A DNA stretch of 32,073 nt. Source: Dehalococcoidia bacterium (GTDB taxonomy: Bacteria; Chloroflexota; Dehalococcoidia; E44-bin15). Numbering within the stretch: the stretch's first letter is position 1; every line of letters starts with the position of its first letter. Shown piece by piece: positions 7,209 to 26,280 of this stretch. Under the pieces are notes generated by a model. That model was not told where the DNA came from, did not search any database, and was given only the letters and a program-made list of their open reading frames with translations. The DNA is taken from the NCBI GenBank assembly GCA_030610655.1, contig JAUWRG010000012.1, positions 1 through 32,073 of the forward strand, written 5' to 3'. Made by a program: the position numbers and the translations under genes.

Positions 7209-7472
7209 GAAAAGGCAATGACGGAGAAGAGTAGGGGGGAGAAGGCGCCAAGCGAGTCTGGTAGGGTGAGAGCAGATGCGACCCTTCCTCTGAAAATCCC
7301 TCCCGAGCTGCCAACCGAACGCCCCGATTAATCGGGTCCAGTAGATTTGGCCGGCTTCGTCAGCCGTTATCCAGACGGAGGCATGAAGCGTGCCTCTGAT
7401 GAGTGCCCCGATGGCGGGGAATTAGGGTGGTACCGCGGGCTTAAAGCTCGTCCCTAGTGGACGAGTTTTTTT
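7209..7472 (+). promoter_or_regulatory. T-box riboswitch, isoleucine specific
   Basis: The T-box AGGGTGGTACCGCGGGC (7424-7440) is followed by a terminator: CTCGTCC (7447-7453), loop, GGACGAG (7459-7465) and seven T (7466-7472). Upstream lies a long stem I region. The specifier is best placed at 7296-7298, ATC (Ile), in GAAAATCCC: it is followed by 13 bases ending GAGCTGC, and in the Trp T-box of this window the TGG codon stands at the same place before 13 bases ending GAGCTGC. A small hairpin CCCGATTAATCGGG (about 7323-7337) falls in the stem II/III region. Uncharged tRNA-Ile should pair here and prevent termination, raising ileS expression. Confidence 0.93.
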
Positions 7473-13340: not shown

Positions 13341-13716
13341 AGAAAGCCCCGCCCCCATGAAGGGGCGGGGTTTATTCCGCGGTGCCACCCTTCTTGGTCC
13401 TCTCCCATTAAAGGAGGTGGAAAAAGACCATCTCATTTACCGGCTACAAAGATGATGGCCCCCGCTCACCCTAATATAGCCTGGACTCTGATAACGGTGC
13501 CCCTCCGTCAAAGCCTACTCCCCCAACCTAATGGGGTTTCGGTTTGCAGCTCCCAAGCCCATTCACCCTCTGCGCTGGCATCGGCTCACACCTTTCCCGA
13601 CTCTCTGAGCCTCGCTTTAGGGCTACTACTCTTGTTCCCAGCCTTTTCTCGTCCAAGATCCGACGCGTCGGACTTCGTTGCGTAAAACCTTACGTTGTAC
13701 TCTTAAGATACGTCCT
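13341..13716 (-). promoter_or_regulatory. T-box riboswitch, tryptophan specific
   Basis: On the minus strand, AAGGGTGGCACCGCGG (13392-13377) is the T-box, followed by a GC-rich terminator (CCCCGCCCC at 13370-13362, loop, GGGGGCGGGG at 13356-13347) and CTTTCTTTTC. The specifier is TGG (13561-13559) in GTGAATGGGC; it stands 13 bases before the end of GAGCTGC, exactly as ATC does in the ileS T-box, and both go on to a shared AACCGAA. Stem I begins near 13716. Uncharged tRNA-Trp should induce trpB2. Confidence 0.93.
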
Positions 13717-15788: not shown

Positions 15789-18700
15789 TCAGACGGGTGA
15801 AGCTATTCTTTGAAGCGCCCCCTCAAGCGCCTTCTGCCACTTTGAGCCAAGTGTATTTATATTCAGGCGCACCTGGCTCGTCCCAGCCTTTATCCCAACA
15901 TCATTAAGGAAGAGCGCTTTATCGACCTTCTTGCCCTCGACCATTCTCAGAACGATCTGCCCATCCTCGGTGGCGATGGACTCAACACCTGCTTCCATTG
16001 CCAGGATTTTGAGCCTGACGGCATAAAGGAGGTTCTTCACCTGAGGTGGCATTGGTCCAAATCTATCTGCAAGCTCCTCCGCCATCTCGTCTACCTGCCT
16101 TATGGAGGTGAGCTTTGCCAGCCTCTGGTAGATGGTGAGCCTGGTATCCAGGTCTGAGACATATCCTTGTGGAATGTGGGCGCGCATGGGCAGGTCTATG
16201 GTTGTCGACTGTGGAATGGGAGCCCTCTTGACCCCCCCGCTCCTCACCTCCTCCACCGCCTCTTGCAGCAGACGGCAGTAGAGGTCGAAGCCCACCGCGC
16301 CGATATGCCCGCTCTGCTCCGCCCCAAGAAGGTTGCCAGCACCCCGTATCTCCAGATCCCTCATGGCGATGTGAAAGCCAGCGCCCAGCTCCGTGGCCTC
16401 AAAGATGGTCTCGAGACGCCTTTTGGCTTGCGGGGTGAGACTTTTCCCCTTGCCATAAAGGAAATAGGCGTATGCCCGATTGGCACTTCTTCCCACCCTT
16501 CCCCTCAGTTGATAAAGCTGGCCAAGACCCAGCTTGTCGGCATCATTGACAATCAGGGTGTTCACATTAGGTATATCGAGCCCAGACTCGATGATGGTAG
16601 TCGAGACCAGTATGTCGATTTTCCCCTGGGTGAATTGGAGCATCACAGATTCAAGCTGCTCTTCGGCCATCTGTCCATGAGCGACAGCTATCTCCGCCTC
16701 CGGGATAAGCTCGGCAAGCTGAGAGGCAACCCGGTAAATGCTTTGCACACGATTATGGACGAAAAAAACCTGACCACCGCGGTCAAGCTCCCTGAGGATT
16801 GCCTCTCGGATTAATCGCTCATTGTATTCCGAGACATAGGTCTTTATAGGCAATCGCTCCTCCGGGGGGGTCTCCATGGTGCTCATATCCCTCACCCCTG
16901 AAAGTGCCATATGAAGGGTACGGGGGATGGGTGTTGCCGTGAGGGTCAGGACATCCACCTCTTTCCTCATCTCTTTTAGATGCTCTTTGTGGGCAACGCC
17001 AAACCTCTGCTCTTCGTCAACTATTACCAGCTCCAGGTTCTTGAAGCCAACGTCTTTCTGAAGCAGGCGGTGGGTGCCGATCACGATGTCGACGGTCCCT
17101 TTCTTAAGCCCGTTGATGACCTCCTCCTGCTCCCGCTCGGAGCGGAATCGACTCAACACCTCAACATTTACCGGAAATGCGCTCACGCGTTCGGTGAATG
17201 TTTGGAAGTGCTGCTGCGCAAGCACCGTTGTAGGCACGAGCATCGCCACCTGAGCGCCATCCATAACCGCCTTGAAGGCTGCTCTGATGGCTAGCTCAGT
17301 CTTGCCGTAGCCCACATCGCCGCAAACCAACCTATCCATTGGCTTCGCTTTTTCCATGTCCTCTTTAATCTGCAGAGTCGCCTTAATCTGGTCTGCCGTC
17401 TCAATATAGGGGAAGGAAGCCTCCATCTCCTCTTGCCAAGTGGTGTCGGGTAAGAAGGCAAAGCCGGGGATGACCTCCCTTAACGCATAAAGGGCAAGCA
17501 GCTCTTTGACAAGCTCTCCCGCCCTCTGCTTCACCCGCTGCTTTGCCCTTGTCCACTCCTGAGTGCCCAATCGGCTCAGAGTCGGCGTCTGGGCACTGGG
17601 CCCGATATAGCGACTCACCCTGTCCACTTGTTCTGTGGGGACATACAGCCTATCGCCAGCAGCATATTCCAGAATCAAGTATTCTCGCTCCGCTCCACCC
17701 GCAATCATCATCCTGGTCCCACCGAACCTGGCGATGCCATGCTCGATGTGAACCACGTAGTCGCCCACCGTGAGCTCGGAGAGAACTCCCGCTTTGTACA
17801 CCGGGTATCGTCTTATGAATCGCCTCTTTTTGGTGAAGCCGAAGATCTCGGCATCGGTAAAAAGGGTGAGCGTACCCGTTACCCATCCCTGAGCCAGCGA
17901 GCCCTCGACCAAGGTGACAGAGCCTTTTGGTGGCAGTTCCTCCAGTTGCGTTAGTGGCGGGGCAATTATATCCCCTTCCTCTAGCAGCTCGGAGAGCCTT
18001 CTCGCCTGATGGGATACGATGACAATGCGCTGCCTTTTCTTGACCATTTCTTTGGCATCTTCAACGAACACATCGAGCCTTCCACCATAAGCAGGCGCGG
18101 AGGAGAATGCGATTGCGGACTCAGACGGTTCCCCTTGCCACGACAAAAGTGATAGGCACCGTCCCATTCTCTGTATGCGGGGCGAAAGCTCACCCCAGGT
18201 AAGATAAGGGAGAGGGAAATTACTGGGAAGTTCCCCCCTTCCTATCTGCCCTCGTCTAATCTCACTTGCCTGAGCATCCAGTTCCCCCAGTGCTTGCTCG
18301 ATTTCGGCAGGATGGTCAAGGATGAGAAGAGCGTTTTGTGGCAGATAATCCAAGAGACTACCGCTGCTAAATAAAGGGGCATAGAACTCAGACTCCTCGA
18401 CATGCTCGCCACCCAGCAGTCTTTCCACATCCTGTTCAAACGTTTCACGCGCTTCAAAGTTGCAAGTCGAAAGGTCAAGTTGATTCAGCAGTCCTTCGGG
18501 CTTTGACTCCCTAATTGAAAAAGGGGCTTCCTTCGGGGGGACGACAGTGATTGAATCCACCAGCCTCACCGAACGCTGGCTTAAGGGGTCGAACAGGCGT
18601 ATACTCTCCACATCGTTGCCGAATAGCTCGATCCTCGCCGGCAGGTCGCTAGACGGCGAATATATATCAATGATGCCCCCACGACGGCTGAAGCTTCCCG

Positions 18701-19214
18701 GCACCTCCACCATGTTCTCCCATTCATAGCCCATATCACTCCACCCAGCGAGCAGCTTTTCCAGATCGACGTTCATTCCCTGTCTAATCACATGAGAGGC
18801 AGAGTGGAAATCGGCGGGGGAGAGGGTCTTTTGGGCTATTGCGCGGGCTGAAGCGACAATCAGTGGGACTTTACCATTGGAGTTCAAAATTGAGAGCGTC
18901 TTGATTCGCTGCTGAACTGTGGCTGGCTCAGAGGAGATACGCTCATAGGGGAGATAGTCAGGCTCAGGGAAGAGCTCAATTGAGGCGTCACCAGACCAGC
19001 ATTGAAGCTGATCCTGAAGATGCTTCGCCTCCTCGGGGTGCAGCGTAATCACTAGCATAGGCAAGCCCAGCTCCCGATGCAGCGAAGACAATAGAAAGGG
19101 CTTGGCCGCATTCAGCACCACCGCCTTCTGTTCTCCCCCTTGCCCAATCTCCTCAAGGAACTGGCGGTAGCCGGGCATATCATTGATTAAGGAGAATAAA
19201 CCGACTAAGTTCAT
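15789..19214 (-). CDS. mfd: Transcription-repair coupling factor
   Basis: 1141 residues. Mfd removes RNA polymerase stalled at DNA damage and recruits UvrA. Visible parts in order: UvrB-like N-terminal domains (to about 350); the RNA-polymerase-interacting domain (SELTVGDYVVHIEHGIARFGG, about 475-500); the translocase with Walker A GDVGYGKTELA near 630 and DEEQ near 731; helicase motif VI region (QLRGRVGRSANRAYAY); and the C-terminal TRCF domain that masks the UvrA site. Length is normal. Weak ribosome site (AGGTG) before the ATG. Behind it, part of the 3' end is duplicated as a fossil at 14872-14964. Confidence 0.97.
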   Translation of the reverse strand: MNLVGLFSLINDMPGYRQFLEEIGQGGEQKAVVLNAAKPFLLSSLHRELGLPMLVITLHPEEAKHLQDQLQCWSGDASIELFPEPDYLPYERISSEPATVQQRIKTLSILNSNGKVPLIVASARAIAQKTLSPADFHSASHVIRQGMNVDLEKLLAGWSDMGYEWENMVEVPGSFSRRGGIIDIYSPSSDLPARIELFGNDVESIRLFDPLSQRSVRLVDSITVVPPKEAPFSIRESKPEGLLNQLDLSTCNFEARETFEQDVERLLGGEHVEESEFYAPLFSSGSLLDYLPQNALLILDHPAEIEQALGELDAQASEIRRGQIGRGELPSNFPLPYLTWGELSPRIQRMGRCLSLLSWQGEPSESAIAFSSAPAYGGRLDVFVEDAKEMVKKRQRIVIVSHQARRLSELLEEGDIIAPPLTQLEELPPKGSVTLVEGSLAQGWVTGTLTLFTDAEIFGFTKKRRFIRRYPVYKAGVLSELTVGDYVVHIEHGIARFGGTRMMIAGGAEREYLILEYAAGDRLYVPTEQVDRVSRYIGPSAQTPTLSRLGTQEWTRAKQRVKQRAGELVKELLALYALREVIPGFAFLPDTTWQEEMEASFPYIETADQIKATLQIKEDMEKAKPMDRLVCGDVGYGKTELAIRAAFKAVMDGAQVAMLVPTTVLAQQHFQTFTERVSAFPVNVEVLSRFRSEREQEEVINGLKKGTVDIVIGTHRLLQKDVGFKNLELVIVDEEQRFGVAHKEHLKEMRKEVDVLTLTATPIPRTLHMALSGVRDMSTMETPPEERLPIKTYVSEYNERLIREAILRELDRGGQVFFVHNRVQSIYRVASQLAELIPEAEIAVAHGQMAEEQLESVMLQFTQGKIDILVSTTIIESGLDIPNVNTLIVNDADKLGLGQLYQLRGRVGRSANRAYAYFLYGKGKSLTPQAKRRLETIFEATELGAGFHIAMRDLEIRGAGNLLGAEQSGHIGAVGFDLYCRLLQEAVEEVRSGGVKRAPIPQSTTIDLPMRAHIPQGYVSDLDTRLTIYQRLAKLTSIRQVDEMAEELADRFGPMPPQVKNLLYAVRLKILAMEAGVESIATEDGQIVLRMVEGKKVDKALFLNDVGIKAGTSQVRLNINTLGSKWQKALEGALQRIASPV

Positions 19215-19558: not shown

Positions 19559-19591
19559 CCGTTCGTGGTGAGCTTGTCGGACCATGAACGG
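19559..19591 (-). repeat. 33-bp dispersed palindromic repeat, copy A
   Basis: Reverse complement of 22741-22773 with one mismatch (TCGG for TCGA). Ends are CCGTTC...GAACGG and the middle is GTGGTGAGCTTGTCG. This sequence type is widespread in bacterial intergenic DNA (from memory). Confidence 0.8.
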
Positions 19592-19865: not shown

Positions 19866-19904
19866 AGGAAGCTGAAGTGACTCAGAATGACAAAAAAGAG
19901 AAGT

Positions 19905-19946
19905 TGGGGACACCCCCAGATATGCGTCTCAGGGCGGGTGGGTGGG
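19905..19946. repeat. Dispersed repeat, CAGGGCGG type, copy 3
   Basis: TGGGGACACCCCCAGATATG, then CGTCTCAGGGCGGGTGGG. The longest upstream ORF extension of proB runs through this repeat, which argues against that longer start. Confidence 0.65.
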
Positions 19947-19961
19947 ACAAACTCTATTTGC

Positions 19962-19990
19962 TTGTTGCAGCCATACCTTACTGATATAAT
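19962..19990 (+). promoter_or_regulatory. proB promoter
   Basis: TTGTTG (19962-19967), 17 bp, TATAAT (19985-19990), with TGA before the -10. The predicted transcript start (about 19997) excludes starts at 19887 and 19989 and leaves the ATG at 20010. Confidence 0.8.
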
Positions 19991-20009
19991 GGCGGCGAAA
20001 AGGTGGAAA

Positions 20010-21119
20010 ATGACCTACCGCCGCATCATAGCTAAGTTTGGCACAAACCTGCTGACCGCAGGCACGGATCGCCTTGACCTTGAGGTGATGGCTACCCTTG
20101 TCGGGCAGGTGGCGAGGCTTCACCAGCAGGGGCTAGAGGTGATTATCGTCTCATCAGGAGCCATTGCTGCCGGAAGGCAAAAGCTAGGCCTGCCAAAGGA
20201 GGCAAAGGACGTAGCCTCCCGCCAGGTGATGGCGGCGGTGGGGCAGAACGCTTTAGTGCAGTCCTACGAGCAGCTCTTCGGCTGGCATGGCATCACCGTA
20301 GCGCAGACCCTGTTGACCAAACACGACCTGAGCGATCGCCTGGGCTACCTCAACGCCCGCAACACTCTTCTTGCGCTCCTTGAGCTTGGAGTGGTGCCCA
20401 TCGTCAATGAGAACGATGTGGTGGCGGTGGACGAGCTTGAGGGGGCAGCTTTTGGGGACAACGACAATCTCTCAGGGATGGTTGCCAATCTGGTGGATGC
20501 CGACCTGTTGGTACTGCTGGGAGATGTCGCTGGGCTGTATACCGCAGACCCGAACAAGGACGCAAACGCTAGGCTTATCCCTCGGGTGGACAGGATCGAC
20601 GAGAGGATCGAGGGCCTAGCTGGCGGCACCAAGGGCCGAGGGATTGGGGGAATGGTGACCAAGGTTCAGGCAGCAAAGCTCGCTGCCTCCTCTGGTGCCA
20701 CCGTCATCATCGCTGAAGGCAGGGAACACAATGTCCTCTTGAGGCTGGTGGACGGCGAAGCCATCGGCACCCTCTTTTCACCGGTGACGAGCAAGATGGA
20801 GAGCAAGAAGCGCTTTCTGCTGGCCGGGCTTGCGGCGAAGGGGAGACTGGTAGTCGATGATGGGGCGGCGACGGCGCTCACCGAGCAGAATAAGAGCCTG
20901 CTACCTGCAGGCATCAAGAAGGTCGAGGGCGACTTTGAGCGTGGCGACGCGGTGAACATCGTCGATGCCAGAGGTGAAAGAATCGCCTGCGGCATATCCA
21001 ACTATTCATCCGCAGAGGTTGTCAAGATCAAGGGGGCTCGCTCCGACAAGATCGAAAGCCTTCTCGGCTACGGATACGGGGACGAGGTGGTGCACCGCAA
21101 TAACCTGGTGGTTTTATAA
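20010..21119 (+). CDS. proB: Glutamate 5-kinase
   Basis: First step of proline synthesis: phosphorylates glutamate to glutamyl phosphate. 369 residues from the ATG at 20010, with AGGTGG at 20001-20006 and a promoter that excludes earlier starts. The amino acid kinase domain shows IIAKFGTNLL at the N-terminus, VIIVSSGAIAAG, VPIVNENDVVAVDEL, FGDNDNLSGMVA and GIGGMVTKVQAAKLA. A C-terminal PUA domain (about 280-369) holds GAATALTEQNKSLLPAGIKK. The partner proA lies 3.2 kb further on, separated by three unrelated genes. Confidence 0.96.
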   Translation: MTYRRIIAKFGTNLLTAGTDRLDLEVMATLVGQVARLHQQGLEVIIVSSGAIAAGRQKLGLPKEAKDVASRQVMAAVGQNALVQSYEQLFGWHGITVAQTLLTKHDLSDRLGYLNARNTLLALLELGVVPIVNENDVVAVDELEGAAFGDNDNLSGMVANLVDADLLVLLGDVAGLYTADPNKDANARLIPRVDRIDERIEGLAGGTKGRGIGGMVTKVQAAKLAASSGATVIIAEGREHNVLLRLVDGEAIGTLFSPVTSKMESKKRFLLAGLAAKGRLVVDDGAATALTEQNKSLLPAGIKKVEGDFERGDAVNIVDARGERIACGISNYSSAEVVKIKGARSDKIESLLGYGYGDEVVHRNNLVVL

Positions 21120-21132
21120 GGGAGACTATTGT

Positions 21133-21169
21133 AAATCCAGCTTAAAAATGCAAAAATATGCCTGGATTT
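21133..21169. terminator. Weak hairpin after proB
   Basis: AAATCCAG (21133-21140) and CTGGATTT (21162-21169) form an 8-bp stem with a 21-base AT-rich loop. There is no good T-run, so it is at most a weak terminator or an insertion boundary. It lies in the AT-rich gap before the inserted genes. Confidence 0.3.
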
Positions 21170-21249
21170 ATCAAATAGTTGGTGCTGGCTTATACGAGGA
21201 ACGCCAAATAGAGTGAATCGCTCCAAACCAAGATAGATAGGCTATTGAA

Positions 21250-21741
21250 ATGCCGGTTGCTCAATTGTCAGACAGGGAAATAGAGACCTTAGTTGCGGTG
21301 CCAAAATATCTTCCTGTGGATTATAGGAGTCGCTTGAGGACACGAACCCGACCCTATTCCGCTCAACATGAGGAGGCACAGCTTGAGGTGCTGGTTGAAA
21401 ATACAGGAACGTTTAGAGTTATTGTCAGAAAGAATCGCATAAACCCTTTAGACTTTAGCGTAATTCTCGGTTATATGCCTCCAGAGCGGCTCAAATTGTT
21501 CCGTCTCCGCCGTTACAATGGATTGCATGAACATACAAACAAGTTAGAGGGTAGTAACTTCCGCACTTTTCACATTCACCATGCCACCCAACGCTATCAG
21601 GAGGCTGGCTGGGATATCGACCGCTTTGCAGAGCCAACCGATCAGTATACAACTGTAGATGAAGCTATGGAGATTTTTCTGGATGATTGCAACTTCGTAA
21701 GACCAGAAAGCGAGAGAATTCAGCAAAAATTGTCTTTATGA
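21250..21741 (+). CDS. Unknown protein, first gene of the cargo between proB and proA
   Basis: 163 residues, not confidently recognised; from memory it may belong to the DUF6978 group often found beside DUF1828 proteins. What can be seen: an alpha/beta protein with an EAQLEVLVENTGTFRVIVRK strand pair, basic LKLFRLRRYNGLHEH, and a His-rich FRTFHIHHATQRYQEAGWDI stretch (about residues 108-127), followed by an acidic TVDEAMEIFLDDCNF. The His/Asp residues could form a metal site, but that is speculative. Base use is visibly AT-rich compared with proB. It overlaps the next gene by 4 bases (ATGA), so they act as a pair, with the arrangement of a toxin-antitoxin or defence pair. Confidence 0.7.
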   Translation: MPVAQLSDREIETLVAVPKYLPVDYRSRLRTRTRPYSAQHEEAQLEVLVENTGTFRVIVRKNRINPLDFSVILGYMPPERLKLFRLRRYNGLHEHTNKLEGSNFRTFHIHHATQRYQEAGWDIDRFAEPTDQYTTVDEAMEIFLDDCNFVRPESERIQQKLSL

Positions 21742-22547
21742 CAGTATGTTCGATATTTGATGGTAGTGATATGAATATAACGGACATAGAGCAGGACTTC
21801 CAAAAGAAAGTTTGTGATAAGATTCGCCTGTTACCAGAAGGCTTGTCACGTTACCTTGTCATACATCCATTCACCTTTGATGATGGTGACCATTATATTG
21901 TAGTTCTCAAGAATGTTGGTGGAGAATGGCAGCTAAGTGATGAGGGGCATACTATCATGCACCTCAGTTATGAGGATATTAACCTTAGCAGGGGTGGTTA
22001 CAGGGAGATTGTCGACAACACAGTAAGTGCATTCGGGTTAGTGAACTGCGAAGGCGAACTTACATTGCCCATCCCGGAAATGAGATTTGGTGATGCTCTA
22101 TTCTCATATATCCAAGCATTGGTGAAAATCTCGGATGTTAAGTATCTGGAGCGGGAACGTGTACGTTCCCTATTTATGGATGAGTTTAGGGGATTTCTCA
22201 TAGAACATATACCTGAGTCTCGCCGTAAATTTGATTATTATCATCCGCAGCATGACCCAAAAAGTGTTTATCCAATTGACTGTCGTGTTGAAACAAGGAA
22301 TAGCCCTCTATTTATCTTTGGCATCACTAGCGATAGTAAGTGTCAGACGGTTACTACCATAATCTATTGGTGGGAGAGACAGGGGGAAGCTTTCAAAGTA
22401 ATGGCTATTCATGAAAATCAGGAGGAAATCAGTAGGCCGATTTTGGCGCGCTTTACTGATGTCTGCGACAAACAGTTCTCTAGCCTCCCCACAAATAGAG
22501 CCCGTATCAAAACATTTGTTGAAGAGAGCTTCGTTCATGGCACATAG
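21738..22547 (+). CDS. DUF1828/DUF1829-type protein
   Basis: About 269 residues. The N-terminal 90 match the DUF1828 pattern: an initial helix (NITDIEQDFQKKVCDKIRLL), FTFDDGDHYIVVLKNVGG, then WQLSDEGHTIMHLSYEDI. The C-terminal half (about 170-269) fits DUF1829: SPLFIFGITSDSKCQTVTTI, then FKVMAIHENQEEISRPILAR and DVCDKQFSS. Function is unknown to me; such proteins occur in mobile and defence-like settings. The ATG at 21738 overlaps the preceding stop (ATGA); ATG at 21771 (MNITDIEQ) fits the domain start better. AT-rich like its partner. Family name from memory, moderately sure. Confidence 0.75.
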   Translation: MTVCSIFDGSDMNITDIEQDFQKKVCDKIRLLPEGLSRYLVIHPFTFDDGDHYIVVLKNVGGEWQLSDEGHTIMHLSYEDINLSRGGYREIVDNTVSAFGLVNCEGELTLPIPEMRFGDALFSYIQALVKISDVKYLERERVRSLFMDEFRGFLIEHIPESRRKFDYYHPQHDPKSVYPIDCRVETRNSPLFIFGITSDSKCQTVTTIIYWWERQGEAFKVMAIHENQEEISRPILARFTDVCDKQFSSLPTNRARIKTFVEESFVHGT

Positions 22548-22740
22548 GTGATGTTCGTGAGAATGTGGCCCAAATAAAAACCCCATCCCTAGCCTTACGG
22601 CACGCACACCATACGGTGACAATTCAGGATGAGGTCGATTCCACTGATAGTATACAATAAATATATAAACTACGTCAAAAATTCACTTATTCCGTTAGCC
22701 CTGAGCCTGTCGAAGAGCATATGGTGCGTTTTTACAAGAG

Positions 22741-22773
22741 CCGTTCATGGTTCGACAAGCTCACCACGAACGG
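22741..22773 (+). repeat. 33-bp dispersed palindromic repeat, copy B
   Basis: CCGTTCATGGTTCGACAAGC followed by TCACCACGAACGG; inverted copy of 19559-19591. It lies in the gap 22548-22850, which otherwise holds only a small palindrome (CACCATACGGTG) and the ribosome site of the methyltransferase. Such repeats at the join of the AT-rich pair and the methyltransferase suggest they arrived separately. Confidence 0.8.
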
Positions 22774-22850
22774 TATTGAGCAAGGCATGTTTGAACGATT
22801 TATTGGTGGGTGGATGCCCATGATGGTTTATCTACACTTCGGAGGACAAT

Positions 22851-24332
22851 ATGGATGAGCTAAAGACAAATGTTCTCTATTATGGTGACAATCTTGAAAT
22901 CTTGCGCAAATATATTCCCGATAACTCGATCGATTTGATCTATCTTGATCCGCCCTTCAGCAGCAAAAAGGACTACAATATCATATTCAAGGAGTCGACG
23001 GGCGAGCAATCTGCAGCGCAGATAAAGGCTTTCAGCGATACATGGCACTGGGACAAATCAGCGGAGGACACATATCAGGACATTATTCTCAACGCTCCAC
23101 CCAAGGTGGCTAAGCTGATAGATGCCATAGTTGGCGGGCTTGGGCGAAACGATGTTACCGCCTATCTAGTTATGATGACCATATGCTTGGTTGAGCTCCA
23201 CCGTGTCCTTAAGAATACGGGTTCGCTTTACCTTCACTGCGACCCCACCGCTAGCCACTATCTCAAAATGGTGCTGGATCAGGTGTTTGGAGCAAGGAAC
23301 TTTCGCAATGAGATTGTTTGGGCTTATACCAGGCCAGGCACTAAGCATCAAAAGCAGTTCCCAAGAACTCATGACACTATCCTCTGGTATTCTAAAAGCG
23401 GCGAATCTTGGATGTTTAACCCTGATGGCGTTCGCATTCCATATGCACAAAGTACCCTTGATAGGGGTAAATACTCTGTTGCAACAAGCAAAGTGACAAA
23501 AGGGATTAGTAAAAGGGTGTTGCCATCAGGGGGCAAATGTCCCGAGGATTGGTGGCAAATCCCAATGATACAAGGTAATGCCAAAGAACGCCTAGGTTAT
23601 GAAACCCAAAAGCCTGTCGCCCTTTTGGAGCGCATCATTGTGGCCAGCTCAAATGAGGGGGATGCTGTCCTTGACCCCTTCTGCGGCTGTGGAACAGCGC
23701 TGGTGGCGGCGCAAAAGCTGAACCGAAAATGGATTGGCATCGATGTTACCCATCTGGCCATCGCAGTAATGAAAAGCCGGCTTGAGGAGAGCTTCCACGG
23801 CATCCAAGTTGATGTCATTGGCGAGCCAGAGGATGTAATGGGAGCTAAAGCCCTAGCCAGACAAGACCGCTATCAATTCCAGTGGTGGGCGCTGAGCCGT
23901 ATTAAGGCCAAGCCGTTCCCCGAGGAGCGAAGGAAGGGCGCTGATAAGGGCATCGATGGTGTCATCGACTTCGTTGAAAGGGACGACGCCACAAGCAAAC
24001 AGGCGATGAAGCGTGCTGTGGTCTCAGTAAAGAGCGGGCATGTTCATGTCAAGGACATCAGAGAGCTAAAGGACATCGCCAGCCGACATGCAATGGGCGT
24101 ATTCATCACTTTACAGCCTCCGACCAAAGAGATGTGCACCGAAGCGGTGAGCGCCGGCAGCTATCATTCACCGCTTTGGGATAGAGATTACACGAAGATT
24201 CAAATCATGACAATCGAGGAACTTTTACAAGGGAAGGCTATCGATATGCCACCAGCGACCTCCCCATATGCTAAGGCGCCAAAGGTGTCAAAAAAAGAGG
24301 GAGAGCAAATAGCCTTGGAAGGGAGTAAATGA
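22851..24332 (+). CDS. DNA methyltransferase fused to an Mrr-like nuclease domain
   Basis: 493 residues. The methyltransferase part (1-about 325) has motif IV DPPF at 33-36 before motif I DPFCGCGTALVAA at 275-287, the beta-class order, for N4-cytosine or N6-adenine methylation. A target-recognition stretch lies at about 150-250. Residues about 350-465 look like an Mrr-type PD-(D/E)xK nuclease: RKGADKGIDGVIDF (Asp369) and, after a loop, VVSVKSG (Lys394), then VKDIRELKDIASRH. So one protein may modify and cut DNA, or the domain may only bind DNA. GGAGG at 22841-22845 sets the start. It ends 1 base before proA, so proA now depends on this transcript. Methyltransferase sure, nuclease probable. 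Confidence 0.9.
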   Translation: MDELKTNVLYYGDNLEILRKYIPDNSIDLIYLDPPFSSKKDYNIIFKESTGEQSAAQIKAFSDTWHWDKSAEDTYQDIILNAPPKVAKLIDAIVGGLGRNDVTAYLVMMTICLVELHRVLKNTGSLYLHCDPTASHYLKMVLDQVFGARNFRNEIVWAYTRPGTKHQKQFPRTHDTILWYSKSGESWMFNPDGVRIPYAQSTLDRGKYSVATSKVTKGISKRVLPSGGKCPEDWWQIPMIQGNAKERLGYETQKPVALLERIIVASSNEGDAVLDPFCGCGTALVAAQKLNRKWIGIDVTHLAIAVMKSRLEESFHGIQVDVIGEPEDVMGAKALARQDRYQFQWWALSRIKAKPFPEERRKGADKGIDGVIDFVERDDATSKQAMKRAVVSVKSGHVHVKDIRELKDIASRHAMGVFITLQPPTKEMCTEAVSAGSYHSPLWDRDYTKIQIMTIEELLQGKAIDMPPATSPYAKAPKVSKKEGEQIALEGSK

Positions 24333-24333
24333 G

Positions 24334-25599
24334 ATGCAATCAGACATCGAGGAGCTTGAAAACAAGGGGAAGGCGGTTAAGGCGGCTTCACGCAAGCTGG
24401 CTCACCTGCCCACGGAGGTGAAGAACAAGGCTCTGCTTAAAATCGCCGAGAGCCTCATCTCCAGGGAACAGGAGATCCTTGACGCTAACCGCCTCGACTA
24501 CGACGAGGCGAAGGCAGCGGGGATGGACGAAGCTATGCTTGACAGGCTGATGCTCGACTCAAGCCGCCTTCAAGGCATCGCTCAGGACGTGCGCACCGTT
24601 GCCTCCCTCCCCGATCCCATTGGTGAGGCCTTCGATGCCAGAACCCTGCCCAATAGGATGCGCATCGAGAGGAGGAGGGTCCCCATGGGGGTAATCGGTG
24701 TCATCTATGAAAGTCGCCCCAACGTAACCGTCGATATATCGTCGCTGTGCCTCAAATCGGGGAATGCCGTTATCCTCAGAGGAGGGAAGGAGTCGATACA
24801 CTCCAATAGTGCTCTGGCCCGGGTGATAAAGGATGCCATCCACGAAGCAGGGGTTCCTCAGGATGCGGTGCAGTTTATCGAGTCAACGGAGCGGGAGCTG
24901 GTGAGCCACATGCTCAGGATGAAAGATAGCATCGACGTCATCATCCCCCGTGGCGGCGAGGGTCTGGTGGGATTTGTTACCGAGAATGCTGTCATGCCAG
25001 TGCTTGCCAGCGGCGTTGGCATCTGCCATACCTATGTGGATAGTGCCGCTGACCTTGATGAGGCGGTTGCCATCGCCTATAACGCCAAGGTGCAGCGCCC
25101 TACGGTCTGCAATGCCCTGGACTGTCTGCTGGTCCATAACGTGGTCGCCGAGCGTTACCTGCCGATGATCGCCAAGGAATGGGCCAAGGCTGGCGTTGAG
25201 ATGCACTGCGATGAGCGGGCTTTGCGGATCCTATCCTCCTTTAACCCCGCTCCAGCATCCGATTCTGACTGGGGCAAAGAGTTCCTGGCTCTAATTGCTG
25301 CGGTAAAAGTGGTTGATTCTCTGGATGAGGCGCTGGAGCACATCGAGCGCTATAGCTCAAAGCATTCCGAGGCTATCATTACCGAGGACTATACGGCGGC
25401 GATGCGCTTTCTTGAAGAAGTTGATTCTTCCTGCGTCTATGTAAATGCCAGCACCCGCTTCACCGATGGCGGGCAATTTGGACTGGGGGCGGAGGTGGGA
25501 ATAAGCACCAACAAGTTTCACGCCCGCGGGCCCATGGGGCTAAAGGAGCTCACCACCTATAAGTGGGTCATCATGGGAAGCGGTCAGGTCCGACCCTAA
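24334..25599 (+). CDS. proA: Glutamate-5-semialdehyde dehydrogenase
   Basis: Second step of proline synthesis, NADPH reduction of glutamyl phosphate. 421 residues, normal length. The catalytic cysteine is Cys259 in RPTVCNALDCLLV; other family stretches are GVIGVIYESRPNVTVD, SGNAVILRGGKE, DVIIPRGGEGLVGFV and the C-terminal FTDGGQFGLGAEVGIST. GGGAG (24322-24326) in the end of the methyltransferase gene serves as ribosome site. The stop codon shares CTAA with the converging hicB stop. Confidence 0.97.
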   Translation: MQSDIEELENKGKAVKAASRKLAHLPTEVKNKALLKIAESLISREQEILDANRLDYDEAKAAGMDEAMLDRLMLDSSRLQGIAQDVRTVASLPDPIGEAFDARTLPNRMRIERRRVPMGVIGVIYESRPNVTVDISSLCLKSGNAVILRGGKESIHSNSALARVIKDAIHEAGVPQDAVQFIESTERELVSHMLRMKDSIDVIIPRGGEGLVGFVTENAVMPVLASGVGICHTYVDSAADLDEAVAIAYNAKVQRPTVCNALDCLLVHNVVAERYLPMIAKEWAKAGVEMHCDERALRILSSFNPAPASDSDWGKEFLALIAAVKVVDSLDEALEHIERYSSKHSEAIITEDYTAAMRFLEEVDSSCVYVNASTRFTDGGQFGLGAEVGISTNKFHARGPMGLKELTTYKWVIMGSGQVRP

Positions 25600-26042
25600 G
25601 GCTTCCTTGAAACCAGCGAGCGCACCTCATTCACACACAATCCCCTCAGCGCAGATGCCCGTGCTGCTAAGAGATCACCATGGACGCCGGCGGCAAGCAG
25701 GCTTGTAATGTATTGATTCAAGCTAACACCGTCCCGCCTTGCTGCGTGAGCTAGATCCCTGTGGAGGCTTCGTGGAATTCGCACTAGTATCTTTCCCTTA
25801 TACTCGTCAAGCTCCCTGGGCAAGCGAATATCTTGACCGGTCTCATAGGCGCCTTCGATCCAGGCACGCCGTGCATCCTGAATAGCTGCAAACAACTCGT
25901 CTAGGGTCTCAGCCTGAGTCATGCACCCAGGTAAATCCTCAATCTCCGCGACAAAGCCCCCCTCAGGGTCGACGTGAACAGTAACGGGGTAGTTCAAGCT
26001 TAAGTAGAAATCAAGTTCTTCCTTGACTTGTTCGCTGCTCAT
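25596..26042 (-). CDS. hicB: HicB-family antitoxin with RHH domain
   Basis: 148 residues. The N-terminal part (about 17-72) is the HicB partial RNase H fold: YPVTVHVDPEGGFVAEIEDL, then PGCMTQAETLDELFAAIQDA. The C-terminal part (83-122, GKILVRIPRSLHRDLAHAA then GVSLNQYITSLL) is a ribbon-helix-helix DNA-binding domain. It neutralises HicA and represses the operon. It starts inside hicA (32-base overlap) and is second in the operon, the usual hicAB order. A tail beyond residue 125 is extra. Confidence 0.93.
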   Translation of the reverse strand: MSSEQVKEELDFYLSLNYPVTVHVDPEGGFVAEIEDLPGCMTQAETLDELFAAIQDARRAWIEGAYETGQDIRLPRELDEYKGKILVRIPRSLHRDLAHAARRDGVSLNQYITSLLAAGVHGDLLAARASALRGLCVNEVRSLVSRKP

Positions 26043-26280
26043 ACCACTCCTCCAGTTCTAGTAGTTCGTTAATCCTTTGTACATAAACTCTTTTTACTCG
26101 GCGACCCTTTTCGGTCGGGACTGTGATAGGCCTTGCCCCAGGCTTGACAAAGGTAAAATGATTGCCCTTTGCGGAGTGCTGCCTATAGTTGAAAGCCTCC
26201 AACAGTGTAACTACTTCTTCAAACCTCACCTCCGGCGGCTCGCGAAGGCATTTGGCGACAAGCTTTTCCAGTTGTGGCAT
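26011..26280 (-). CDS. hicA: HicA-family toxin, mRNA interferase
   Basis: 89 residues. The double-stranded-RNA-binding-like fold with the active-site histidine shows as SAKGNHFTFV (His41), followed by RPITVPTEKGRRVKRVYVQR, equivalent to the usual IPxHxG and central basic strand. HicA cleaves mRNA to stop growth. The second histidine of the usual IPxH is Glu/Lys here, a deviation that could weaken it. No ribosome site before the ATG; the predicted leader is about 12 bases. Confidence 0.85.
   Translation of the reverse strand: MPQLEKLVAKCLREPPEVRFEEVVTLLEAFNYRQHSAKGNHFTFVKPGARPITVPTEKGRRVKRVYVQRINELLELEEWYEQRTSQGRT

Follow-up and report, generated by a model that had tools for sequence, protein, structure and literature searches.

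A probable cargo site within the proBA operon of Dehalococcoidia, with signs that a PDC-M24-related gene pair took the place of a DUF3800 gene

Introduction

Defence hotspots hold variable defence cargo between fixed core genes. The stretch of DNA analysed here (the window), 32,073 nucleotides from an uncultured Dehalococcoidia bacterium (GenBank JAUWRG010000012.1, assembly GCA_030610655.1), likewise carries variable defence-like cargo between fixed core genes, proB and proA, two genes of proline synthesis that are often adjacent. It differs in that a single biosynthetic operon supplies both flanks and the intervening protein genes keep its strand. These genes are an overlapping pair, A and B, and a methyltransferase with a nuclease domain. 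We consider it probable that the proBA interval is a recurrent cargo site in Dehalococcoidia, that a mobile pair related to PDC-M24 replaced a DUF3800 gene within it, and that the pair and the methyltransferase-nuclease are defence-like.

The closest catalogued system is PDC-M24, a PADLOC phage-defence candidate made up of genes A and B. The window pair has the same gene order and overlap, and gene B matches the B model; gene A lacks a match to the A model, and DUF1829 was not detected in gene B. A paralogous pair in the same genome matches both models and sits in a type III restriction operon. Judged by sequence, the window pair is a divergent relative of PDC-M24. That candidate probably stems from Payne et al. 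2024, which is said to be a preprint on embedded defence candidates. Among the literature matches listed there was no relevant paper under the name PDC-M24. Embedded defence candidates are described as 'guilt-by-embedding' in one paper (PMC12988326).

HipAD, or DS-6 (DefensePredictor), is a two-gene system for which phage protection and DUF1829 in the B protein are reported (PMC13092281). This domain is C-terminal in relatives of gene B, making HipAD a lead. As described there, its A protein is a HipA-like kinase, whereas no kinase model of Pfam, PADLOC or NCBIfam matched gene A, and membership of the pair in HipAD was rejected on that ground. The layout of two small, overlapping, co-directional genes is also that of type II toxin-antitoxin systems. 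Single-chain type II restriction-modification enzymes join methyltransferase and nuclease motifs in one chain, and both are conserved in the window enzyme, although its nuclease domain is C-terminal and Mrr-like. The DUF3800-IX RNA (RF02968) accompanies a DUF3800 gene; the window has a high-scoring RNA, a promoter-like site and flanking homology, but its DUF3800 gene is cut down to nine codons. The components are known or catalogued. The DUF3800-to-pair replacement and the proBA cargo site are new to the literature searched: neither such a replacement nor a proBA defence site is named in titles or abstract openings among the literature matches listed.

Results and Discussion

The genome (1.68 Mb) is assembled in 91 contigs, one of which (C21) is the window in its entirety. 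The window's plus strand reads proB, gene A, gene B, methyltransferase-nuclease, proA, and the features concerned are as follows.

15789..19214, minus strand: mfd, neighbouring proB in the window and in further class loci
19887..21119, plus strand: proB (glutamate 5-kinase), intact (TIGR01027, E 1e-129); left edge of the island
21250..21741, plus strand: pair gene A, 163 aa, DUF6978-like, relative of PDC-M24A
21738..22547, plus strand: pair gene B, 269 aa, DUF1828 protein with PDC-M24B match; start ATG within the ATGA overlap with gene A
22548..22577, plus strand: DUF3800 relic, final nine codons and stop (VMFVRMWPK-stop), directly after the gene B stop
22575..22636, minus strand: DUF3800-IX RNA (RF02968, Rfam match), antisense to the operon
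22649..22678, minus strand: promoter-like site TTGACG-18-TATACT, just upstream of the DUF3800-IX RNA
22741..22773, no strand: palindrome resembling a repetitive extragenic palindrome (REP); second copy at 19559-19591
22851..24332, plus strand: DNA N6/N4 methyltransferase with C-terminal Mrr-like nuclease domain, 493 aa
24334..25599, plus strand: proA (glutamate-5-semialdehyde dehydrogenase), intact (PRK00197, TIGR00407); right edge of the island

Gene A lies directly upstream of gene B on the same strand with a 4-bp ATGA overlap, and a single base separates the methyltransferase-nuclease stop from the proA ATG. The true start of proB is probably near 20010, since the family match begins only at residue 45. 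GC content is 0.42-0.45 across the pair against 0.56-0.61 in proB and proA. An earlier sequence-only reading of this DNA had described the gene order, the common strand, the ATGA overlap, the AT-rich pair and the one-base gap before proA, and coordinates and GC content confirmed these observations. The methyltransferase with a nuclease domain that it named was also borne out, the Mrr-like motif and the methyltransferase motifs being intact. Gene B, which it had typed as DUF1828/DUF1829, matched DUF1828 (8e-20), while DUF1829 was not detected in the window copy. It had missed the DUF3800-IX RNA, the nine-codon relic and the REP-like palindrome.

Sequence comparison with a genome of the same family (G009) indicates that the pair replaced a DUF3800 gene in the window's lineage. 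The order in G009 is mfd, proB, a complete DUF3800 gene, antisense RNA and methyltransferase, with the methyltransferase start 93% identical to that of the window over 88 aa. Homology between the two runs to the proB stop, is lost across the pair and returns directly after the gene B stop, the regained stretch spanning the RNA and ~50 bases beyond. The window tail VMFVRMWPK-stop stands against REVYVQLWPK-stop in G009, and similar ends occur elsewhere. On a profile built from relatives only, the window tail scored 6/10, a score reached at 4 of 64,086 window positions, and it stands at the expected place. We favour replacement because the window keeps both the RNA and the last nine DUF3800 codons right after the pair. 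An assembly chimera could be suspected from the 91-contig assembly and the fall of GC in the insert. We regard this as extremely improbable, as the junction retains a meaningful DUF3800 tail and the order is partly common to other genomes (proB-methyltransferase-proA in G004, RNA-methyltransferase in G009).

The window RNA scored 65.1 bits against an Rfam gathering threshold of 36.8. The promoter-like site upstream of it is on the same strand and is the best-scoring of the region, which holds about as many such sites as chance would give (7, with 5.3 expected); 7/9 aligned relatives have TTGAC at the corresponding position. Across 393 genomes of the class the RNA gave 24 matches in 21 genomes, and 22 of the 24 neighbourhoods were examined, two matches below the cut-off being left out. 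By tblastn, a DUF3800 gene lay within 150 bases of the RNA in 12 of 15 other loci and was convergent with it in 11. The window RNA has no adjacent DUF3800 gene, only the nine-codon relic. Four of the 22 examined were at proBA, namely those of the window, G009, G251 and G288. The order in G251 is proB, an open frame, DUF3800, RNA and proA. G288 reads DUF3800, RNA, methyltransferase (two aligned pieces) and proA, and its contig ends before proB. In a fifth, G327, 2.3 kb separate the RNA from proA, and the stretch yielded no proB. A rarer related RNA, DUF3800-VII (1/119 genomes), nevertheless occurred in 3/27 loci scanned, nearly all of them proBA regions. Its neighbour is a DUF3800 gene in G291 and, in G345, a DUF3800-like C-terminus located where the contig starts; in G371 no DUF3800 gene was seen and a weakly HicA-like gene is nearby.

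Methyltransferase homologues at E ≤ 1e-100 were found in at least 22 of the 393 genomes, a lower bound because scoring was limited to three candidates per genome. The gene stood just upstream of proA in 14 of the 22, from 8 families (G000, which is the window's own genome, G004, G005, G019, G131, G161, G190, G291, G301, G306, G345, G371, G376 and G382); this position was judged by coordinates as within ~1.7 kb of proA on the same contig and strand. Three more proBA-located methyltransferases fell below the E threshold (G025, G040, G041). Among the best 80 of 568 named loci, proA or proB was in the fetched stretch of 9, all titled Chloroflexi, Chloroflexota, Dehalococcoidales or Dehalococcoidia. 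The split of proB from proA is not a chance event, as the same methyltransferase stands between them in other genomes. In G019 (locus L037) a 355-residue DUF3644 / PDC-S19 defence-candidate gene (2.9e-120) abuts the proBA methyltransferase.

Both active sites of the enzyme are conserved. In an alignment of 84 sequences, the nuclease motif GxDxGxDG...(Q/S)VK is intact, with D365, D369 and K394 in 84/84; position 392 is Q in 56/84 and S in 28/84, including the window. The DPPF and FxGxG-type methyltransferase motifs are equally well kept (D33, F36, G279 and G281 in 84/84, P34 and P35 in 83/84). An inactive nuclease, as the Pfam name NA-iREase1 might imply, was rejected on the invariance of the motif residues. 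Such a protein is likely a single-chain restriction-modification enzyme. Five of the 22 homologues (G376, G356, G392, G280, G306) each have a single in-frame stop, which is TAG in all but one of them. Together with a gene fragment in G005 these stops suggest decay; decay, assembly error or recoding may each account for the stops themselves.

Empty and filled sites coexist within the window's own family (14 genomes including its own, of which nine could be assessed and five had no proA match). proB and proA are together in 4/9 (G003, G006, G008, G012); these are the relatives with an intact proBA that the sequence-only reading had suggested looking for. The site is filled in 5/9, and the contents differ. 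Besides the window, G004 has a methyltransferase between proB and proA, and G009 is filled on the proB side. A methyltransferase fragment abuts proA in G005 and a weakly TIR-like gene (E 0.021, below the cut-off) does so in G010, both contigs stopping short of proB. The three genes had been taken as one cargo. This does not hold, given the methyltransferase in the G004 interval, the DUF3800-RNA-methyltransferase order of G009 and the replacement of DUF3800 by the pair. The methyltransferase is the recurrent, patchily distributed resident, and the pair arrived later. The proposal that cargo inside the operon would be hard to lose is contradicted by four empty family sites, the G005 fragment and the in-frame stops. 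As a separate observation, nine proBA loci of the class (L239, L264, L265, L266, L270, L282, L044, L081 and L274) encode, a short way downstream of proB, a small protein of ~90 residues that often has a WWGE motif. The one member scanned gave no Pfam match. A gene in L239 is labelled HEPN-like from our own sequence reading, and it has no Pfam match.

Mobility, which the sequence-only reading had suggested for the pair, is supported by its nearest relatives found. These are in G392 (gene A 70%, gene B 76% identical), beside mfd-proB-proA on the other side of mfd. The neighbours there are less alike (mfd 58%, proB 62%, proA 69%), which argues for transfer of the pair. Class-wide, DUF1828 occurs in 37/393 genomes, and gene A lies directly upstream in 26 of 42 gene B matches (loci examined).

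The second copy in the window's own genome is flanked by res and mod within a type III restriction operon (L071 4912-10778, contig C27), again with a 4-bp overlap. It is canonical, matching PDC-M24 A (7e-56) and B (3e-100), and DUF1829 is present in it. Restriction-type genes abut at least six of the 25 class pairs other than the window's. Besides the own-genome type III res/mod, the neighbours are type I R and S in G097, a type III-like res plus a methyltransferase in G207 and an Eco57I-type enzyme in G279; G088 has an SNF2-like helicase and a DUF1156 protein beside the pair, and G231 an HSDR_N fragment. This count excludes L218, where an HNH endonuclease gene lies upstream of the pair. Both pair genes also occur in three Pseudomonas phage records. 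In two of these an annotated cI repressor precedes the pair, a single small gene separates them, and the 4-bp overlap recurs. Gene A is directly upstream of gene B in 12/15 viral loci; the neighbouring genes labelled as repressors in L155-L157 and L163 were named from our own sequence reading. Two plasmid records matched over 38% and 42% of gene B.

The two proteins were compared with families and structures. Gene B matched DUF1828, PHROG 5059 and PADLOC PDC-M24B (PDLC04539, E 1.4e-16). In its predicted model (pLDDT 75.7, pTM 0.53), residues 9-135 aligned with Spa15, a type III secretion chaperone (Z 10.2, rmsd 2.8, 114 aligned). The C-terminal part aligned modestly with PD-(D/E)XK nucleases (PspGI, Z 7.9, rmsd 3.5, 129 aligned; Can2, Z 7.0, rmsd 3.7, 113 aligned). 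No clear (D/E)XK motif was seen in that part in our own reading. Gene B is thereby predicted to combine a chaperone-like N domain with a PD-(D/E)XK-like C domain. Gene A matched PHROG 27326 and, weakly, DUF6978 (E 9e-4, 20 bits, below the 29.6 cut-off). A catalytic site is suggested by conservation across 33 non-redundant sequences of K19 and H95 (33/33), H108 (31), H110 (30), N97 (29) and R88 (28). Its predicted model (pLDDT 83.7, pTM 0.80) gave no convincing fold match; VIA scored best at Z 4.6, among unrelated folds of similar Z. In profile searches against solved structures gene B had 0 matches and gene A had 3, at E 0.22 to 0.72.

Several observations weigh against a recurrent cargo site with a defence-like pair. 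In 8 of the 22 genomes the methyltransferase is not beside proA (G392, G058, G364, G071, G254, G280, G051, G356); proA is mostly on another contig in these, G051 has no proA match and G356 is a short contig without proA. The compared genomes are largely metagenome assemblies, and the key G009 contig ends inside the methyltransferase. Control gene pairs were also instructive. Within the family, trpB and trpA are no more than 250 bp apart in 9/9 assessable genomes. Class-wide, gaps above 250 bp separate proB and proA in 9/25 pairs, but trpB and trpA in a similar fraction (9/34) and carA and carB in more (29/42 same-contig pairs). In the family, carA-carB gaps exceed 250 bp in 5/6, at 671 to 3463 bp (lengths only were compared). 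Operon interruption is thus common in the class, and a split by itself does not set proBA apart. Gap length says little, and on the trpB-trpA and carA-carB controls it was discarded as proof that a hotspot exists. The case rests on a recurring resident and varied cargo rather than on proBA being split.

Methyltransferase distances are correlated with those of proBA (r 0.55, Mantel p ~5e-4), so part of the pattern is vertical. This, and the proBA location of 9/13 rows in the window's well-supported clade, could mean that the split order is ancestral to the class, that empty sites are losses and that nothing moves in. We give this vertical account little credence. In the tree of 84 methyltransferases the proBA label clusters but needs at least seven changes on well-supported branches, and L038 falls in a separate clade. 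Moreover, relatives carry different cargo, the exchange of DUF3800 for the pair can be seen, and between families the pair is more similar than its neighbours are. The label changes and the distance correlation therefore point to partly vertical inheritance with repeated gain or loss at the cargo site.

Other points concern the pair. Gene A had no match to any PADLOC model (E ≤ 1), the PDC-M24A profile included, and Foldseek returned no match with E ≤ 0.001 for either model, the fold matches being modest. No abutting restriction gene was recognised in 19 of the 25 other class pairs, whose neighbours were mostly read rather than scanned. Some class pairs sit in pdh, pur or other housekeeping clusters (names such as enolase, GAPDH, pur, pdh and glutamate dehydrogenase are our own sequence reading). 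A chiefly non-defence setting had been named in the sequence-only reading as telling against it, and this objection applies in part. Its view of the island as defence-like cargo nevertheless gained support from the PDC-M24B match, the restriction-type neighbours and the conserved methyltransferase-nuclease motifs. That interpretation is partly supported and was incomplete.

The pair could instead be an accessory or control module that binds or regulates a neighbouring methyltransferase or restriction enzyme and forms no separate defence system. This would fit its embedding between res and mod, hsdR and hsdS, or SNF2-like helicase and DUF1156 protein, and its positions beside the Eco57I-type enzyme and upstream of the window methyltransferase. 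We consider it unlikely, as the partner enzymes are of differing types, most other class pairs have no recognised restriction neighbour and two Pseudomonas phage records place the pair behind a repressor and annotate no methyltransferase in its vicinity. Some weight is due to a simple toxin-antitoxin or addiction module without antiviral function, maintained neutrally or through post-segregational killing, although we doubt it. Two small overlapping genes that are mobile, occur in phages and chromosomes and often lie in housekeeping clusters would suit such a module, whereas repeated embedding in restriction operons and the post-repressor phage sites point to defence or superinfection exclusion. 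We hold a defence role of the pair to be likely from its sequence context, yet unproven because most class pairs lack a visible restriction neighbour.

We propose the following course of events for a recurrent, defence-like cargo site. The most frequent resident seen in the proBA interval is the methyltransferase-nuclease, sometimes with a DUF3800 gene and a convergent DUF3800-type RNA. In the window's lineage a mobile two-gene module appears to have replaced DUF3800, while the nine-codon tail, the RNA and the methyltransferase stayed. Homologous recombination between the conserved flanks is the most likely route of exchange, as no integrase, transposase or tRNA was recognised in the interval (no recombinase match in the three genes between proB and proA, and no tRNA gene in the window). 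In this the island differs from integrase- or transposase-borne elements. Lying on the operon strand, the cargo could be expressed from the proB transcript without loss of proA expression, and the RNA would run antisense from its own promoter-like site.

As both active sites are conserved, the enzyme may methylate host sites and cut unmodified invading DNA. The pair would most likely act as a second layer, toxin-antitoxin-like or by abortive infection. Gene A would be the effector, with its candidate catalytic residues. Gene B, which joins a chaperone-like domain to a nuclease-fold domain that lacks a clear catalytic motif, may restrain A or sense DNA. A bolder scheme is conceivable, in which the DUF3800-type RNA, the methyltransferase-nuclease and an exchangeable module (DUF3800 or the pair) act together as a single RNA-dependent defence system housed in proBA, with the RNA as a working part kept when the effector is swapped. 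We think this improbable.

Further features lie around the island. Inverted copies of the 33-nt REP-like palindrome (19559-19591 and 22741-22773) flank proB and the pair; its exact core is present in 4/328 loci, three of the four being stretches of the window itself. A hicB-like gene (25596-26042) and a hicA-like gene (26011-26280), both on the minus strand with Pfam matches over the cut-off, overlap the 3' end of proA, thus placing toxin-antitoxin-like cargo on both sides of proA. Two T-box leaders, at 7209-7458 (plus strand) and 13358-13648 (minus strand), adjoin ileS-like and trpB-like genes (names read from sequence).

Conclusions

If this interpretation is right, defence-type genes turn over within a biosynthetic operon of Dehalococcoidia without a visible recombinase, and the window preserves a replacement junction of which both states are known. 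It would also provide a natural case of a DUF3800-type RNA persisting without its gene, so that the role of the RNA becomes testable. A catalogued candidate pair would further be linked to phage lysogeny regions and restriction operons, with residues named for mutation.

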